From positions 43,065-107,064 of the forward strand of contig NZ_JAFIEU010000040.1 of assembly GCF_020832325.1 (NCBI RefSeq): a stretch of 64,000 bases of DNA, given 5' to 3'. Made by a program: the position numbers and the translations under genes. The DNA comes from Lunatimonas sp. Its GTDB lineage: Bacteria > Bacteroidota > Bacteroidia > Cytophagales > Cyclobacteriaceae. Below, in pieces: positions 33,548-41,426 of the stretch (position 1 is its first letter; each line of letters opens with the position of its first letter). The notes beneath the pieces are model-generated. The model was given only the letters and a program-made list of their open reading frames with translations. It searched no databases and was not told where the DNA came from.

Positions 33548-36500
33548 ATGAAAGGCTATGAAGGCAATCCGCCTATAAAAGACGAGATTTCTCGGGATGT
33601 ATACCTGAATCTCTTCCAAAAACTAAAATCACCTTCCTTTATTTGGAAAAAAAAGGACGAAGACTACACCTTAGTAGATTACACCGAAGAAGCTCTAAAT
33701 TACTTTCAGGAGTCTGGAAAGCCTTTTCATGGTAAGAAAAGTAGTGAACTGCTGGCGCAATGTATAGAAATGCACCAGGATTTGGAAACCTGTACCAAAA
33801 ACCAACTAGATATAGAGCGGGAATATTCTTTTACAAACACAGGCTTCGAAAAGGAAAAAAGAGTTAAGGTGTATTACAAATGCCTCAATTCGGATTTCAC
33901 ATTCGTCCAACTAGAGGAAGTGAAAATCGCCGAAGAGAACTATTCAAAAAACGTCAAAGAACTATTAAAGTTCATAGAAGGCAGTCCGGCTGCATTAGCC
34001 ATGCTAGACACTGAAATGTGTTATCTAGCTAGGAGCGATAAATGGATTGCCGACTATAATTTGATCGGCAAAGAGCTAATTGGCAAAAGTCACTATGAAA
34101 TTTTCCCCGAAATTGGCGCTGAGTGGAAAAAAATTCATCAAGAATGTTTAAAAGGCAAGGCCGATAAAAGAGACGAAGATTACTTTATCCGTCAGGATGG
34201 AAGTATAGACTGGGTTCGATGGGAAATACGTCCATGGTTTCAGGATAACGGAGAGGTGGGGGGAATCATCCTGTTTACGGAACTAATAACGGAGAAAAAA
34301 CGAATCGAAAAAGAACTAAAGGATCAAGTAATTCGAAGTGAGACGAATGAGGCAAAATTAATTGAAGCCCAAATGGTCTCAAAACTCGGTAGTTGGGAGA
34401 CAAATCTTTTAGACTTAACGGTAAATTGGTCGCCAGAGACCTACAAGATTTTCGAACTGGATCCTAGGGCATTCCAGCCAACGCATGAATCCTTCCTAGA
34501 CTTCGTCCACCCCGATGATAGGGATATGGTACACCATAAATTTATCGCTTCATTTAACACCAAAAACTATAATTCTGTCGAACATAGGATTATTACGGCA
34601 AAAGGAAATATAAAAATTGTAGAGGAAAGGTGGAAGATTCTCTACGATGAATCAGGCAAACCTTTACGGACATTTGGAACCTGTCAAGATATCACCGAAC
34701 GAAGGTTGATACAGCAGGAGTTGCTGGAGACAAAAAAAATATCCGAGGAAAATGAATACCGCCTAACGCTGGCAGTAGAAGCCGCTGAACTGGGAGTCTG
34801 GGACTGGAACCTTCAAACAAATGAATTGATTTGGGACAATCGCATGTACGCCCTGCATGGTTTCACGGAAAATGAAACAAAAAATACCTTTGAACATTGG
34901 GCACATACGCTTCACCCTGAAGACAAATCGGCGGTCATCACAGAGCTTGAGCAGGCAAAAAGAGAAGAAAGAAAATTCGATTCTTCGTTCAGAATTGTCA
35001 AACCTAACGGACAAATAGCATATATAAAAGCAGCCGGAATTTTCCTTAAGAACGAACTCGGTCTTCCTTATCGAATGATCGGAATGAACAGAGATATCAC
35101 TGAACTAGTCAATAGTATTAAAAATACCGAAGAAAGTGAGGAAAAGTTTAGATTGGCTTTTATGACGGCATCAGATGCCTTCTCCATAGGAACAATTACA
35201 GACGGAAAGTTGCTTGAGGTCAATGATAAGTATTTTGACATATTCGGATACACGAGAGAAGAATGTATACATAAAACCTCCCAGGAACTCAACCTGTATA
35301 AAAACCAAGAGGATAGAGCACGTATACTACATGAGCTCAAGACAAAAGGGTATGTAAAAGATCTGGAGTTAGAAGGGAGGAAAAAGAACGGGCAGACCGT
35401 ATTTGTCTCTATGTCTGTTAATTATTTCACAGCGAATGGAGAAGATTACCTCATTGGGTGCATAAGAGATATTACAGATCGGAGAAAAGCAGAGCAGAAA
35501 CAGATAGCTAACTTAAAAATAATTGCAGATTACCGCAATGCACTAGATGCGTCTACTATAGTGGCAATCACCGATGCCAAAGGAAAAATAATTCACACAA
35601 ATGAGAATTTTTGCAAAATCTCCAAATATACCAGTGAAGAGCTGATTGGTCAAGACCATCGGCTTATCAACTCGGGCTACCATTCCAAAGATTTTATCAA
35701 AACATTATGGAAAACAATCTCCTCCGGAAAAACTTGGAAAGGCGAGTTTAAAAACAGAGCCAAAGACGGCTCCTTTTACTGGGTTGACACCACTATAGTT
35801 CCCTTTCTAAACGAAAAAGGTAAACCTGTCAAATACATTGCCATACGGTCTGATATTACCGACAGAAAAATAGCAGAAGATGAGCGGCAAAAAATCATGA
35901 ATGATCTAATACAAAGGAATAGGGATTTAGAACAATTCTCCTATATCGTTTCCCACAACCTTCGTGCACCGGTTGCAAATATTATTGGAATCAGCAATTT
36001 ATTACTTGACTCAACATTGGATCAAGATCAAAAAGACCAATTGAATATTGGGTTAAAAAAGTCAATTCAAGGTCTGGACATGACCTTGAAAGATCTAAGT
36101 TATATCTTGCAAAAGAAGCATGAAATACACGAGAACAAGGTCACGGTAAATCTCACTAACCTTGTTGAAAATATTCAGGAAAGTATTCAAAACCTTATCA
36201 ACAAAGAAGGTGCTGTTTTTATAGTCAATTTTAATGAGATCGATGAAATTAAAACCATAAAAAGCTACCTACATAGCATATTCTACAATTTGATCTCAAA
36301 TAGCATAAAATACAAACAGAAGGCTGTTAACCCCATAATAGAGATAAAAAGCCAATTGTCGGAAAAAAATATCATTATCACTTTTAAGGACAATGGGATT
36401 GGAATTGACCTAACCAAGAAAAAAGATCAAATATTCGGATTATATAAACGATTTCATTTTCATACAGAAGGAAAAGGAATGGGACTGTTTATGGTAAAGA

Positions 36501-36592
36501 CACAGGTAGAAACATTAGGTGGACGAATTGAAATTGATAGTGAAATAAATAAAGGAACCACATTTACAATCAGCTTTGAAAGACCAAATTAA
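33548..36592 (+). CDS. Cytoplasmic six-PAS sensor histidine kinase
   Basis: 1014 residues without membrane segments. About six PAS folds: ~25-125 (FIWKKKDEDYTLVDYTEEA), ~140-255 (FIEGSPAALAMLDTEM), ~275-395 (KLGSWETNLLDLTVNWS, PAS_3 type), ~405-525 (AELGVWDWNLQTNELIW, PAS_3), ~535-650 (ASDAFSIGTITDGKLLEVN) and ~660-780 (DASTIVAITDAKGKIIHTN). Several end in the PAC signature DITERR/DITDRR. The dimerisation domain carries His803 in SYIVSHNLRAPVANI; the ATPase domain shows YNLISNSIKYK (N box), FKDNGIGIDL (G1) and GKGMGLFMVKTQVE (G2). It phosphorylates a partner, most likely the small response regulator 13 bases downstream. The gene is visibly more AT-rich than its neighbours. Confidence 0.95.
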   Translation: MKGYEGNPPIKDEISRDVYLNLFQKLKSPSFIWKKKDEDYTLVDYTEEALNYFQESGKPFHGKKSSELLAQCIEMHQDLETCTKNQLDIEREYSFTNTGFEKEKRVKVYYKCLNSDFTFVQLEEVKIAEENYSKNVKELLKFIEGSPAALAMLDTEMCYLARSDKWIADYNLIGKELIGKSHYEIFPEIGAEWKKIHQECLKGKADKRDEDYFIRQDGSIDWVRWEIRPWFQDNGEVGGIILFTELITEKKRIEKELKDQVIRSETNEAKLIEAQMVSKLGSWETNLLDLTVNWSPETYKIFELDPRAFQPTHESFLDFVHPDDRDMVHHKFIASFNTKNYNSVEHRIITAKGNIKIVEERWKILYDESGKPLRTFGTCQDITERRLIQQELLETKKISEENEYRLTLAVEAAELGVWDWNLQTNELIWDNRMYALHGFTENETKNTFEHWAHTLHPEDKSAVITELEQAKREERKFDSSFRIVKPNGQIAYIKAAGIFLKNELGLPYRMIGMNRDITELVNSIKNTEESEEKFRLAFMTASDAFSIGTITDGKLLEVNDKYFDIFGYTREECIHKTSQELNLYKNQEDRARILHELKTKGYVKDLELEGRKKNGQTVFVSMSVNYFTANGEDYLIGCIRDITDRRKAEQKQIANLKIIADYRNALDASTIVAITDAKGKIIHTNENFCKISKYTSEELIGQDHRLINSGYHSKDFIKTLWKTISSGKTWKGEFKNRAKDGSFYWVDTTIVPFLNEKGKPVKYIAIRSDITDRKIAEDERQKIMNDLIQRNRDLEQFSYIVSHNLRAPVANIIGISNLLLDSTLDQDQKDQLNIGLKKSIQGLDMTLKDLSYILQKKHEIHENKVTVNLTNLVENIQESIQNLINKEGAVFIVNFNEIDEIKTIKSYLHSIFYNLISNSIKYKQKAVNPIIEIKSQLSEKNIIITFKDNGIGIDLTKKKDQIFGLYKRFHFHTEGKGMGLFMVKTQVETLGGRIEIDSEINKGTTFTISFERPN

Positions 36593-36605
36593 TTAGATAG
36601 TTTAT

Positions 36606-36995
36606 ATGAAATCAGAACCTCAATTTATGCTATTGGATGATGATCCAATCAATAACATGTTCAATAAAATGATTATCAAGAAGATATATCCGGACGCGTC
36701 TCTAATTGCCTTTGAAGAGCCACTAAAGGCGTTAGAATATCTAGAACATTCATTCGATCGTTCGTCTGTTGAGAAAACAACTCTCCTTCTAGATATTAAT
36801 ATGCCCGTAATGTCTGGATGGGAATTCATGGAAGAATTTGAGAACCTTGAGACCGCTATTAAAGAAAGAATAGTTATCTATATACTTTCTTCCTCCATAG
36901 ATCCTAGGGATATCGAAAAAGCAAAAGACAACACGCATGTGATAAATTTTATTGAAAAACCATTATCCGCTGATTTTCTCAAATCTCTGGTATAA
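36606..36995 (+). CDS. Single-domain response regulator (CheY/Rcp1-like)
   Basis: 129 residues, one receiver domain only. Acidic pocket LLDDDP (residues 10-14), phospho-acceptor Asp63 in LLLDINMPVMSGWEF, switch Ser around 95-97 (ILSSSID), and Lys118 in NFIEKPLS. No output domain, so it acts by protein contact or in a phosphorelay. It directly follows the PAS kinase gene and shares its AT-rich composition. Confidence 0.95.
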   Translation: MKSEPQFMLLDDDPINNMFNKMIIKKIYPDASLIAFEEPLKALEYLEHSFDRSSVEKTTLLLDINMPVMSGWEFMEEFENLETAIKERIVIYILSSSIDPRDIEKAKDNTHVINFIEKPLSADFLKSLV

Positions 36996-37160
36996 AATAC
37001 GTTGTATGGCCCTGACAAAATTGAAAAGAACTAAGCCTTGGATCGAAGAACTATCCATCAAGCAAAATTGTCGGAACAGATGGGGCATGCCGAGCCTCAT
37101 TGATTGAGAATTTTGTCTATATTTACAACGGGTCGGATCTTTTGTTCGTCCTTGGTTTTG

Positions 37161-37880
37161 ATGGAGGCTCTATTAGAAGGCATGGTTTCCCAATTCTCCT
37201 ACCTAGCATGGTTTGGGGTGACGATTCTTTATTTTTTACTCCTCTATTTTGGCCTGGGAAGCCTATTTCTCAGGGCGTGTAAATTCCTGGCCCGAAAAGA
37301 TCTGCTCCAAATAATTGATACCCGAGAGACCTCTAGCCGTCAGCGTCGGTTTGAGATTCGCCACTCCCTGAAATCCATCGTCATCTTTGGATTCTCTTCC
37401 CTTCCCATTATCTACCTGATTCGGATGGACTTTATCTACCTGCTGCCAAACACGTGGATAAATATCCTCTGGGGCCTAATCCTACTGACGCTTTGGAACG
37501 AGGTCCACTTCTATGTGATCCACCGGATCATGCACCTCAAGCCTATGATGCAACATATTCACTACATCCATCACCGATCCACAGTCCCCACCGTCTATTC
37601 GGTGTACAGTTTCCACTGGCTGGAGGCATTCTTACTGAGTACGGTGCCTCTGACCATTGTTCCATTTATCCCTATGCCTATTGTAGCAGTATTTCTCTAC
37701 CCTACAGTCAGTATCCTGCTGAACTTTGCAGGGCATTGCAATTACCGGTTTGGCACTGGCAGGGGCAATAGCTGGCGACTATTTGGCACGGCTCATCACG
37801 AGCACCACAGCAAGGGAAGGAAGAATTATGGTTTTGCCCTAAACCTTCTGGATAAGCTGTTTTCCAAACCAACGAAATAA
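37161..37880 (+). CDS. Sterol desaturase / fatty acid hydroxylase family membrane protein
   Basis: The track start at 37104 is a TTG; I prefer the ATG at 37161 (MEALLEGMVSQFSYLAWF), 239 residues (ATG 37182 is also possible). Several membrane helices (YLAWFGVTILYFLLLYFGLG, SIVIFGFSSLPIIYLI, TWINILWGLILLTLW, VPLTIVPFIPMPIVAVFLYP) surround the di-iron histidine clusters HFYVIHRIMH, HYIHHRS, HCNYR and AHHEHHSKGRKNYGF. The family inserts hydroxyl groups or double bonds into lipids (sterols, fatty acids, carotenoids). It is the first gene of a three-gene run: 3 bases separate it from the ketoacyl-synthase fusion. Inference: it modifies the lipid product of that enzyme. Confidence 0.9.
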   Translation: MEALLEGMVSQFSYLAWFGVTILYFLLLYFGLGSLFLRACKFLARKDLLQIIDTRETSSRQRRFEIRHSLKSIVIFGFSSLPIIYLIRMDFIYLLPNTWINILWGLILLTLWNEVHFYVIHRIMHLKPMMQHIHYIHHRSTVPTVYSVYSFHWLEAFLLSTVPLTIVPFIPMPIVAVFLYPTVSILLNFAGHCNYRFGTGRGNSWRLFGTAHHEHHSKGRKNYGFALNLLDKLFSKPTK

Positions 37881-37883
37881 CCC

Positions 37884-39734
37884 ATGCAAGAAGTATATAT
37901 CACCAGTTCAGGCTCCTTCCTCCCCAATTCACCTATTAGCAATGCGGAAATGGAAGATTTTCTGGGCCGTATCCATGGAAAAGATAGCCGAAACCGAGAG
38001 CGCATACTAAAACAAAATGGCATCCAGACACGCTATTATGCCCTGGATAAGCAGCAGCAATCTACCCATTCCAACGCCGAGCTGGCCGCACAGGCCATCC
38101 GAACGGCACTGGAGAGAAGCCGCCTGCGGGCCAGCGAGATCGACTTATTGTGTACGGGAACCACCCAAGGGGATCTGCCCATACCGGGATTTGCCAGCAT
38201 GGTGCATGCCGGTCTGGATTTGGGTACCTGCGAGGTTTCCAGCCACCAAAGTGTATGCGCCAGCGGTATCATGGCACTAAAAAATGCGTATTCCCAGATT
38301 AAATGCGGAGAAAAACAGAACGCCCTATCCGTGGGGAGCGAATTTGCAAGCAGGATGTTCAAAGCCTCCCGCTTTGAGGCCCAAGGGACGGATGCCCTTC
38401 CCTTTTCCGTGGAATTCCTCCGCTGGATGCTTTCCGATGGTGCAGGGGCATTCGTATTGCAAAACCAGAAAAATGAATCCGGGATATCCTTGAAGATCGA
38501 CTGGATTGAATTGAAATCCCACGCCCATGAGTTTCCGGTGTGCATGTTTACCGGGAAAACAGACAACAAAAACGAAACCGAAAAAACCTGGCTGGACTAC
38601 CCCAGCTATGAAGAGGCCTCAGCCGCCGGAGCCATCAATCTCCGGCAGGATGCTCGCCTGCTGGATAGCCTGGTAAAAACCGGTGTAGCCCACTATTTTG
38701 AATTGATCAACCAGGGGAAAATCCAACCAGCGGGCATAGACTGGTTTTGCTGCCATTACTCCTCGGAGGTCTTTAAGGGCCCCATCAAAGAGTTGATGAT
38801 CAAGGGTGGCGGAGAAATCCCTGACGCGAAATGGTTTAGCAACCTTCCTACCAAGGGAAATACCGGCGCTGCTTCCATCTACATCATGTTGGATGAGTTG
38901 CTGTATTCGGACAGGCTACAAGCCGGCGACCGCATCCTGTGCATGGTGCCCGAAAGCGGCCGTTTCATTACTTCTTTTATGCACCTCACGGTGGTCGGGG
39001 AGGATAAAGCCGAAAAGAAGCCCTATACGACCCGGGAAATTGAATCTCCGGAACTAAACCTTGCCAAAAACGAAACCTCCGAGTGGCTCATTCGGAATCT
39101 TGCGCAGGTCTGGATTGATTTTGAGACCGAATTGCTCCAGGTGCCCGTCGTCGCCAAGATCCATCAGGGAAATCTCAGTCTGGCCGACTACAAGCTGCTC
39201 CTGACCGACCTGCGCCAACAGGTAATCGATGGCTCTCAGTGGATCTCCCGGGCCGCATCCCATATCGACATTGGGTTGTTTGAGCTGCGGTCGGCCTTTA
39301 TCAAACATACCGCTGCCGAACACAAGGACTATCAACTGCTCGAACGGAATTTTGAGGCCCTCGGAGAGGATCTCGAGACCATCCGAAGCGGTGAGAAAAA
39401 CATCGGTACCGTGGCCCTCACCTCCTTCGTTTTTCAACAGGCCAGTAAACCAAACCCCATCGATTTGCTGGGGGCCATGTTTATCATCGAGGGCATTGGC
39501 AAACGACTGGCCGGCTATTGGGGAAGGATGATCCAGGAACAACTCCACCTTAGAGACGATCAGGTATCCTTCTTTACCTACCACGGCGTGGCAGATGAAA
39601 ATCACTTTCATAACCTAGAAAAGGCCTTGGAGCACCCGCTTATGAACCTAGACTTGGCCAAGCGAATCGTGAAAACGGCCAAAACTACTGCTAAACTCTA
39701 CGCCATGCAGCTCAATGAGCTAGGCAACTACTGA
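37884..39734 (+). CDS. Fusion of beta-ketoacyl-ACP synthase III-like and heme-oxygenase-like diiron (HDO-type) domains
   Basis: 616 residues. Residues 1-~375 are a KAS III/FabH-type thiolase fold with a complete triad: Cys125 (HQSVCASGIMA), His291 (WFCCHYSSEVF) and Asn326 (LPTKGNTGAASIYIMLDEL). After a short linker (~376-400) comes an all-helical domain (~400-616): WIDFETELLQVPVVAKIHQGNL, HTAAEHKDYQLLERNFEALGED, MFIIEGIGKRLAGYW and YHGVADENHFHNLEKAL. The spacing of Glu416, His427, Glu536, His568, Asp571 and His574 fits a heme-oxygenase-like diiron oxidase (UndA/BesC-like fold). KAS III condenses acyl-CoA with malonyl-ACP; HDO enzymes decarboxylate or oxidise fatty acids or amino acids. A single polypeptide could therefore make and oxidise an acyl chain. 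I recognise the parts, not the combination, and the diiron assignment of the second half is inference. Confidence 0.85.
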   Translation: MQEVYITSSGSFLPNSPISNAEMEDFLGRIHGKDSRNRERILKQNGIQTRYYALDKQQQSTHSNAELAAQAIRTALERSRLRASEIDLLCTGTTQGDLPIPGFASMVHAGLDLGTCEVSSHQSVCASGIMALKNAYSQIKCGEKQNALSVGSEFASRMFKASRFEAQGTDALPFSVEFLRWMLSDGAGAFVLQNQKNESGISLKIDWIELKSHAHEFPVCMFTGKTDNKNETEKTWLDYPSYEEASAAGAINLRQDARLLDSLVKTGVAHYFELINQGKIQPAGIDWFCCHYSSEVFKGPIKELMIKGGGEIPDAKWFSNLPTKGNTGAASIYIMLDELLYSDRLQAGDRILCMVPESGRFITSFMHLTVVGEDKAEKKPYTTREIESPELNLAKNETSEWLIRNLAQVWIDFETELLQVPVVAKIHQGNLSLADYKLLLTDLRQQVIDGSQWISRAASHIDIGLFELRSAFIKHTAAEHKDYQLLERNFEALGEDLETIRSGEKNIGTVALTSFVFQQASKPNPIDLLGAMFIIEGIGKRLAGYWGRMIQEQLHLRDDQVSFFTYHGVADENHFHNLEKALEHPLMNLDLAKRIVKTAKTTAKLYAMQLNELGNY

Positions 39735-39753
39735 TCAACCAAACGACGACACC

Positions 39754-40632
39754 ATGGATAATTTAACCCACGACGAAAGAGACCCGAACCCCTGGCTGGC
39801 CCTCTACCTCGACGATAGTATTCCGATTAACGCCACCACAAAGAGAGCCCTGATGCGGGACAATTCCTCCAAATCGGTGCGGTACCTGCTTCCCATCATA
39901 GAAGTTTGGTCCAAAGTCACCATGTTTTTTATCCATGTGTTCAAATATTTTGTGCCCCGTGGATTGAACTCCTCCCGTGTACTGCACCGGATTCTGGCAT
40001 GGGGCTTGAAGAACTTTGTGAGTCCAGATGCCAATTTGCTTATTTTTAGGCACTTCCATGTGGGCACCGAGATCCTACAGTTTATCGCGGGAAATGTGCC
40101 TGGGGTATCCTTGGCAGGAAATCCCCTCAAACCGAAAGATTTTGATAGCATCAAGGAGGATCTGTTTTTGAAGCACGATTTAAATCTCTATAATTTTGTC
40201 ATCAACCTAAACAGGCAATTAAAGGAAAGGGGGCTAACGATCCGCCCCCCGGAAAAATTAAACCTAAGCATGATCACCGAGGACCAGTTTGACCACATCG
40301 AATTTCCAAACCGATGGACCAACGTCTTGGATCTGCGTTCGGCTATAGAGTTGTTTACGCCATTTTACCAGCTTTTTCTGACGGCCAATGACTTCGTGCG
40401 TGCTTCCAATTCCCTGCAATTGGATGAAACCATCGCTATTTATACGTCCCAGATACTGGGAACACCCGCCCACTTGGGGTTGGTAAACAACAAGCACCCT
40501 ATGGTGCCGGAAACAACCTATAGCGCGGCCTATCGATTGGTATTACATGGCCTGGCTGCCGAAACACTGCATGAAATTCTCGTTAAAATGAAGCTGAGCA
40601 AACTGAGTGACGGAATCATTACGCCACATTAA
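39754..40632 (+). CDS. Unrecognised 292-residue protein of the ketoacyl-synthase operon
   Basis: 292 residues, start 19 bases after the fusion gene, so almost certainly co-transcribed. No signal peptide. One moderately hydrophobic stretch (TMFFIHVFKYFVP) and otherwise mixed helices. Notable conserved-looking parts are LLIFRHFHVGTEILQFIAGNVPG, a His-rich segment, LFLKHDLNLYNFVINLNRQL, and IEFPNRWTNVLDLRSAIELFTPFYQLFLTANDFVRASNSLQLDE. I see no nucleotide-binding or known catalytic motif and do not recognise the family. By context it is a partner or further enzyme in a lipid or polyketide-like pathway. Its end overlaps the convergent metallo-beta-lactamase gene by 4 bases. Confidence 0.85.
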   Translation: MDNLTHDERDPNPWLALYLDDSIPINATTKRALMRDNSSKSVRYLLPIIEVWSKVTMFFIHVFKYFVPRGLNSSRVLHRILAWGLKNFVSPDANLLIFRHFHVGTEILQFIAGNVPGVSLAGNPLKPKDFDSIKEDLFLKHDLNLYNFVINLNRQLKERGLTIRPPEKLNLSMITEDQFDHIEFPNRWTNVLDLRSAIELFTPFYQLFLTANDFVRASNSLQLDETIAIYTSQILGTPAHLGLVNNKHPMVPETTYSAAYRLVLHGLAAETLHEILVKMKLSKLSDGIITPH

Positions 40633-41426
40633 TCGGCGTTGGGAACCCTACCCTCACCGAAATGCCTGGTCTTAAAGAGTTCAAGGGTATAGTCAAGAAG
40701 CGCACCATCACCGAAAGCCCCGTGGCCCGGCACCACTACCTTGACTTCCGGAAATCTCTTTTTGATCCGCTCCACGGTGTGAGACCACGCGAATACATTG
40801 GCGTCTCCTAGAAATCCTTTTTGTGCGCCGAGCTCCTTAACCAGGCAGCCTCCAAACAAAATATCCTCACTAGAAAAATATACCACCACGTTGTCCGCCG
40901 TGTGCCCCTCCCCATAATGCGTAGCCAGAATGGTTTTATCCCCCACTTTGAGTAAAAGTGAATCCGCAAAACCATGCTGGGGCAGGGCAAAGTTGTTTTC
41001 CGCAGCAAACTGTATCGTTTGGTGGGAAGCATAGGAAGGAATCCCCCAACTTTCAAACACCGGCAGTCCTCCCAAGCAATCCTTGTGAAAATGGGTAGGA
41101 ACTACTCCTTTTACCTGAAAATCTGCGCTGTTTTGCAGCCATTCGATGAGTGCTTCCGAGCTTATGTCGTCTGTTGGCGTATCAAAGACGTAAGCCTCCC
41201 CTCCTCCCGTAAGTACGAGACCGTTGCAGGCAACCTTTCCAAAATCATCTGTTTGTAGATAAGAGGTATGGATGTAGGCATTTTCGGAAACCTGCGTGAC
41301 CACCAGTTCCTCCGATCGAAACAATTCTTGCGGAAAAATGGCTTGATTTGATGGTGTGTTACAAGCGACCATTGTGATAGCTACGCATGTAGCCGAAATG
41401 ACAAAAAGAGAATCTCTCATCCGCAT
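40629..41426 (-). CDS. Subclass B1 metallo-beta-lactamase, lipoprotein
   Basis: 265 residues. Signal peptide with lipobox TMVAC (Cys22), so membrane-anchored. All ligands of the two zinc sites of subclass B1 are present: His112, His114 and Asp116 (PTHFHKDCLGG), His175 (YGEGHTADN), Cys194 (ILFGGCLVKELGA) and His235 (VVPGHGAFGD); Lys197, three after the Cys, is the carboxylate-binding Lys of B1 enzymes such as BcII and NDM/IMP. FDTPTDD at 82-88 and GHTADNVVVYF are typical for the family. Established: B1 enzymes hydrolyse penicillins, cephalosporins and carbapenems. Inference: this is a chromosomal, species-specific enzyme of an environmental bacterium, as in many Bacteroidota. The lipid anchor is as in NDM. 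Its own activity is untested. Confidence 0.92.
   Translation of the reverse strand: MRMRDSLFVISATCVAITMVACNTPSNQAIFPQELFRSEELVVTQVSENAYIHTSYLQTDDFGKVACNGLVLTGGGEAYVFDTPTDDISSEALIEWLQNSADFQVKGVVPTHFHKDCLGGLPVFESWGIPSYASHQTIQFAAENNFALPQHGFADSLLLKVGDKTILATHYGEGHTADNVVVYFSSEDILFGGCLVKELGAQKGFLGDANVFAWSHTVERIKKRFPEVKVVVPGHGAFGDGALLDYTLELFKTRHFGEGRVPNAD

Follow-up and report, generated by a model that had tools for sequence, protein, structure and literature searches.

A ketosynthase of the StlD/DarB kind joined to a heme-oxygenase-like domain in Lunatimonas and other Bacteroidota

The fusion gene and its operon

The window (i.e., the whole 64,000-nucleotide stretch of Lunatimonas DNA that was analysed, to which all coordinates refer unless a locus is named) carries a + strand gene (37884..39734) for a 616-aa protein, in which a ketosynthase (KS) domain (residues 1–372; 37884..38999, +) is followed by a domain resembling the heme-oxygenase-like diiron (HDO) superfamily (residues about 395–616; 39066..39731, +). 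The original prediction had read this protein as a ketosynthase III plus an HDO-like domain, and that two-domain reading holds, since StlD (PDB 5gk0) aligns with residues 3–371 (E 1.3e-77 in a sequence search) and PF14518 (Haem_oxygenas_2 in Pfam) matches the C-terminal part with 33.8 bits vs. a gathering score of 28.9. The fusion copy in genome G255 scores 31.6 bits with the same family. In the AlphaFold2 model (mean pLDDT 82), residues 397–615 form a bundle of seven main helices (397–417, 433–460, 463–492, 507–520, 525–553, 558–582, and 589–615), and the best PDB sequence match of this half was the heme-oxygenase-like 3dde (E 0.0026). When the full-length model was submitted to Foldseek, KS matches filled the list and left no room for HDO matches. 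The prediction had known no described system with such a fusion, and our literature search, which reached few subscription journals, found no paper on one either; the protein is apparently an undescribed arrangement of two known enzyme kinds.

The fusion gene is the middle member of a three-gene run on the + strand, with intergenic gaps of 3 and 19 bases. Directly upstream lies a membrane protein of the fatty-acid-hydroxylase superfamily (37161..37880, +; PF04116, E 2.5e-22) with three histidine clusters (HRIMH, HYIHH, and HHEHH); its reading frame was listed from a TTG at 37104, and the ATG at 37161 is backed by homologues. Directly downstream lies a gene for a 292-aa DUF6999 protein (39754..40632, +; PF22523, E 1e-121) with many invariant His, Asp, and Glu residues. 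The structural model of this protein (pLDDT 74) had no Foldseek match in the PDB at E≤0.001, and the PDB gave no sequence match either. The idea that DUF6999 is a hidden HDO or ferritin-like protein was unsupported, given this lack of PDB matches and a probability of 0.3% in an hhalign comparison with the HDO profile. A literature search with the same limited reach into subscription journals yielded no paper on DUF6999. A DUF6999 gene scoring over the cut-off was also seen in Caulobacter vibrioides, included as a control genome.

Two neighbouring loci were recorded as well. A subclass B1 metallo-beta-lactamase gene (40629–41426, –; NCBIfam NF033088, 249.5 bits vs. a cut-off of 200) is convergent with the DUF6999 gene and overlaps it by 4 bases; since it occupies the same place in two congeners (L001 and L002, 75–80% identity), it probably belongs to the chromosome as an intrinsic gene. 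Genes for a multi-PAS histidine kinase and a response regulator (33548–36995, +) shortly precede the operon and are absent from that place in the two congeners. An Rfam search found nothing, and promoter and terminator scans returned nothing above chance.

Conservation and distribution of the unit

More than 50 Bacteroidota loci hold the fusion at full or nearly full length. Species genomes were scanned and gave 34 loci, in Bacteroidota only (Cyclobacteriaceae, Flavobacteriaceae, Saprospiraceae, Leadbetterellaceae, and others), and 33 of these independent loci matched residues 1–616 or 4–616, the remaining one ending at a contig end; the longest frame was shortened in two of the 34. Eighteen more genomes of the host family carry the fusion. 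Within the host genus it is present in all three genomes at 95–100% identity, both congeners being Lunatimonas, and comparison with these two gave dN/dS values of 0.07 for the KS half and 0.03–0.04 for the HDO half. Both halves are thus under strong purifying selection. Supported by this selection, by the open frame and by its fused state across Bacteroidota, the presence of the KS and HDO-like domains in a single chain is real, neither chance nor misassembly, and the fusion is old.

The original prediction had treated the fusion as the whole unit, a view that gave way to an operon with DUF6999 and usually the hydroxylase. The DUF6999 gene adjoins the fusion in 33 of the 34 loci and is present in 56 of the 57 of an enlarged set, and hydroxylase homologues (mostly 239–242 aa) lie directly upstream of the fusion in 30/34 and 49/57 loci, respectively. 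A fatty-acid desaturase homologue (PF00487) accompanies 11 of the 57 loci and directly follows the fusion in 8 of the first 34. The genes flanking this core differ outside close relatives. Since genomes G255 and G281 hold the fusion and DUF6999 with the hydroxylase absent, the smallest common core comprises KS, HDO, and DUF6999.

The distribution of the unit is patchy: of 396 genomes sampled from the phylum, 4 have the HDO domain, fused in all four, and DUF6999 is present in 23 of 247 host-family genomes. The KS-HDO gene was found in 19 of 20 DUF6999-positive genomes checked and in none of 20 DUF6999-negative relatives (Fisher p 3e-10, a value that overstates independence because the genomes are related); one of the 20 negative relatives has a stand-alone KS. 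Interrupted copies were seen in two host-family genomes, i.e., of both the fusion and DUF6999 in G406 (G406:C62; counted among the 19 carriers) and of DUF6999 in G523 (G523:C1).

The two halves and their relatives

StlD chains were also the top Foldseek matches of the fusion model (TM 0.89, E 3.8e-32, 39% identity), and with StlD the best match by far in both sequence and structure searches, a generic FabH identity of the KS was ruled out. Residues C125, H291, and N326 (codons at 38256, 38754, and 38859, +, placed by alignment and numbering) are invariant in all 54 fusion sequences, so that the predicted Cys-His-Asn triad was right, while the FabH-type label has to yield to the StlD/DarB cyclohexanedione synthases as nearest kin. 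E153 (codon at 38340, +), conserved in 53 of the 54, aligns with StlD E154, which is reported to be the cyclisation residue. A Glu is kept at this position in StlD, DarB, and the clade of fused and split KSs (see below), vs. an Asp in a FabH-like protein of the host.

Together with StlD (of Photorhabdus; PDB 5gk0/5gk1/5gk2) and DarB, the fusion KS thus shares fold, length, triad, and the Glu154 equivalent. Unlike them, it carries a C-terminal HDO-like domain, forms its own clade, and stays under the family cut-offs: NF005293 (NCBIfam) scores it at 427.7 bits and its counterpart in G281 at 447 bits vs. a curated cut-off of 450, and DarB models likewise place it under their curated cut-offs. In a KS tree, whose root placement and long G219 branch are uncertain, the fused KS, the split KS, a Streptomyces KS, and the KS of genome G219 form one clade (97/100), and this clade joins StlD (96/98) and not flexirubin DarB, which lies apart. 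A flexirubin DarB identity was ruled out by this separate clade and by genome G182, which has a DarA/DarB pair besides the fusion.

A split version of the unit was found on a Pseudoalteromonas plasmid, where genes for a 185-aa membrane protein, a KS (366 aa, 52% identical to the fused KS), an HDO (226 aa, 37% identical to the fused domain, gap-free), and DUF6999 (280 aa) follow one another in this order, nearly touching or overlapping. The split HDO had no Pfam match, and its family membership comes via the 37% identity to the fused domain. Since KS, HDO, and DUF6999 are separate neighbours here, the fusion joins two partners, and the adjacent KS and HDO genes point to a functional pair. The 185-aa membrane protein directly before the split KS (L043:9436-9993) has conserved-looking His, Asp, and Glu residues; it was considered as a hydroxylase homologue and rejected, with no Pfam match and no detectable similarity.

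Other relatives were seen beside either partner. With the split HDO as query, HDOs were retrieved from a conserved operon on gammaproteobacterial plasmids, encoding a thermostable hemolysin (T_hemolysin), an AMP-binding protein, an HDO, and an SDR, in some cases with a TPR protein (L049:4462-6621; also L047, L048, and L050–L052). Like the split HDO these adjoin an enzyme gene, in their case AMP-binding (substrate-activating) and not KS; they keep the canonical E-x2-H, and no DUF6999 is annotated among their neighbours. Another fusion was seen in Pseudoalteromonas donghaensis, where the HDO match falls at the end of the AMP-binding protein. On the KS side, two Streptomyces linear plasmids (L044 and L045) carry what looks like a resorcinol-type cluster, in which an StlD-like KS precedes a DarA homologue, an FAD monooxygenase, SCP2, FabF, a P450, an ACP, and FabG. 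In the variant unit of G219 (L087:1404-5132), the KS is a separate gene accompanied by a flavin-binding monooxygenase, and a frame there resembles DUF6999 very weakly (21.5 bits, under the cut-off, with a TAG inside the matched region).

For the HDO-like half, a gap-free alignment with the canonical plasmid-borne HDOs maps the ligand positions onto E479, D482, E536, H567, D571, and H574 (predicted metal positions, with codons at 39318, 39327, 39489, 39582, 39594, and 39603, all +). All six are invariant in 54/54 sequences, as is H475 (codon at 39306, +). With UndA, BesC, SznF, CADD, and AetD, the domain shares the PF14518 match, an acid on core helix alpha-1, a Glu on alpha-2, and H-x3-D-x2-H on alpha-3, and its modelled bundle of seven main helices would fit their fold. 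It departs from canonical HDOs in having E-x2-D for E-x2-H, besides the attached ketosynthase: in all 54 sequences the alpha-1 His is replaced by Asp482, the other five ligand positions being invariant. The textbook 3-His/3-carboxylate motif (E/D-x(n)-H, E, H-x3-D/E-x2-H) is therefore not kept, and since the Asp is found in every member, canonical diiron chemistry is not to be assumed. No His lies 3, 7, or 10 residues past E479, the spacings of UndA/AetD, CADD, and SznF/FlcD, respectively. H475, one turn ahead of E479, could supply the missing His. In canonical HDOs an acid and a His stand on core alpha-1, a Glu on alpha-2, and H-x3-D/E-x2-H on alpha-3, as in the AetD ligands D76, H79, E140, H172, E176, and H179 (PMC11611611), and when about 5,000 HDOs were surveyed, about 85% of the groups had E-H-X-H-D/E-H and about 9% lacked a clear motif (PMC11363339).

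The predicted membership of the HDO superfamily is supported by PF14518 and qualified by the altered motif. Among the six ligands originally proposed, E536, D571, and H574 stand, E416 and H427 were rejected on conservation (22/54 and 49/54), and H568 was a numbering slip, residue 568 being a Gly and the His standing at 567; the invariant alpha-1 positions E479 and D482 had been overlooked. Because the KS falls just under the StlD/DarB cut-off and the HDO-like domain fails the 3-His/3-carboxylate motif, the fusion is filed neither as a DarB nor as a canonical HDO, although it probably works like both.

A possible one-chain route to dialkylresorcinols

Since the KS is of the StlD/DarB type, it points to cyclic 2,5-dialkylcyclohexane-1,3-dione or resorcinol chemistry and not to an alkene. 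DarB makes 4-carboxy-2,5-dialkylcyclohexane-1,3-diones (PMC5515871), and DarA has been assigned as the DAR-aromatase that would convert DarB products to resorcinols (PMC3949708). It is the immediate neighbour of DarB in two flexirubin clusters (L090/L091) and of the KS in the Streptomyces cluster (L044). Unlike DarB clusters, the fusion unit has DUF6999 as a partner, and no DarA was detected with it: the window cassette has no DarA-type aromatase beside its KS, and a DarA profile search of six genomes did not detect one in the host (G000), G255, G281, or G219. In G182, which holds the fusion plus a DarB, DarA was found at that DarB; since this genome has both systems, the product of the fusion probably differs from the flexirubin resorcinol. 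The KS-adjacent slot that DarA occupies in flexirubin and Streptomyces clusters is taken by the HDO in the KS-HDO unit, and in G219 an FMO-type flavin monooxygenase follows the KS. DarA itself is flavodoxin-like (a motif read by eye, with no Pfam match) and not an HDO.

The analysis establishes the domains with their catalytic residues, the operon, the split homologue, the co-occurrence, and the outcome of the DarA search; substrates, chemistry, metal content, and product are what we infer. In general terms, the fusion probably builds a cyclic lipid and oxidises it within a single chain. Our tentative proposal, to which we give somewhat less than an even chance, is that the KS makes a carboxylated 2,5-dialkylcyclohexane-1,3-dione, which the HDO would aromatise by oxidative decarboxylation, replacing DarA. 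By kinship with StlD and DarB, the KS would condense a beta-ketoacyl thioester with a 2-enoyl thioester and close the ring to a 4-carboxy-2,5-dialkylcyclohexane-1,3-dione. The HDO-like domain, presumably holding two metals in a site rich in carboxylates, would then bind the ring carboxylate, remove hydrogen from the neighbouring carbon, and release CO2 in a UndA-type oxidative decarboxylation. Among the reactions of known HDOs are C–C cleavage that forms an olefin, and desaturation (PMC13108848). The carboxylated ring would be a chemically sensible substrate for the UndA-like decarboxylation, because loss of the hydrogen beside the carboxylate together with CO2 would leave a ring one tautomerisation short of aromatic. 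That tautomerisation would yield a 2,5-dialkylresorcinol, with the HDO standing in for a separate aromatase DarA, and the operon partners (the fatty-acid hydroxylase, the optional desaturase, and DUF6999) would then tailor or place the product. Counting against this proposal are the alpha-1 Asp of every HDO-like domain, the KS scores under the curated cut-offs, and the co-existence of DarA/DarB with the fusion in G182.

Alternatively, the KS may make an open-chain or cyclic keto-lipid that the HDO hydroxylates or desaturates without aromatising it (giving, e.g., a hydroxylated cyclohexanedione or diketone), after which the membrane hydroxylase would act on the alkyl chain. We consider this somewhat unlikely, although several oxidative enzymes do occur together (PF04116, HDO, and the optional PF00487 desaturase), and the FMO-type monooxygenase beside the related KS of G219 hints at oxygen insertion no less than at aromatisation. 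Moreover, the alpha-1 His-to-Asp change gives a 2-His/4-carboxylate set like that of ferritin-like diiron oxygenases, 4C/2H ligand sets being listed for the ferritin-like fold (PMC13108848). Against it, the HDO sits in the slot of DarA, which went undetected in the four genomes named above.

We regard it as distinctly unlikely that the HDO acts before the KS, oxidising an acyl substrate (e.g., to a 2-enoyl or shortened chain) that the KS then condenses: 2-enoyl and beta-ketoacyl thioesters are ordinary intermediates of fatty-acid synthesis, so a dedicated oxidase would not be needed. The substrates of known HDOs are indeed mostly fatty or amino acids (PMC13108848), and distant HDO relatives adjoin AMP-binding genes or, in one case, lie inside an AMP-binding protein, but these relatives are only about 21–30% identical to the split HDO. 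That the HDO-like domain has a binding or dimerisation role without redox catalysis is quite improbable; the replaced canonical ligand and the metal-free PqqC of the same fold (PMC11363339) speak for it, whereas none of the five canonical positions, nor D482 or H475, varies among 54 sequences. Of the two halves, the HDO domain is also the slower to evolve, which again argues against a non-catalytic role. Least probable is the alkene route, in which the condensation product would be decarboxylated to an olefin in a UndA-like manner, given that the KS is closest to ring-forming synthases, the 3-His/3-carboxylate motif is not kept, and UndA takes a free fatty acid with no ring-closing KS required. 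UndA is nevertheless an HDO fatty-acid decarboxylase (PMC13108848), and of the original idea of a dedicated route to an unusual lipid or alkene, the lipid-type pathway survives and the alkene is disfavoured by the StlD/DarB-type KS.

Returning to aromatisation by the HDO, a fuller and more doubtful version would have one chain act as both cyclohexanedione synthase and aromatase, with a 2-His/4-carboxylate dimetal HDO carrying out the oxidative decarboxylation of DarA and DUF6999 serving as an unrecognised third enzyme or carrier. The unit would also give the DUF6999 family a first function. The HDO superfamily is growing fast, about a dozen of its members having been characterised (PMC13108848), and HDOs whose ligand sets are atypical have been named as a likely place to find new chemistry (PMC11363339). 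The KS-HDO unit offers a conserved case of this kind, in which the attached ketosynthase predicts the HDO substrate, a natural split version exists, and the ligand set is changed at one position.
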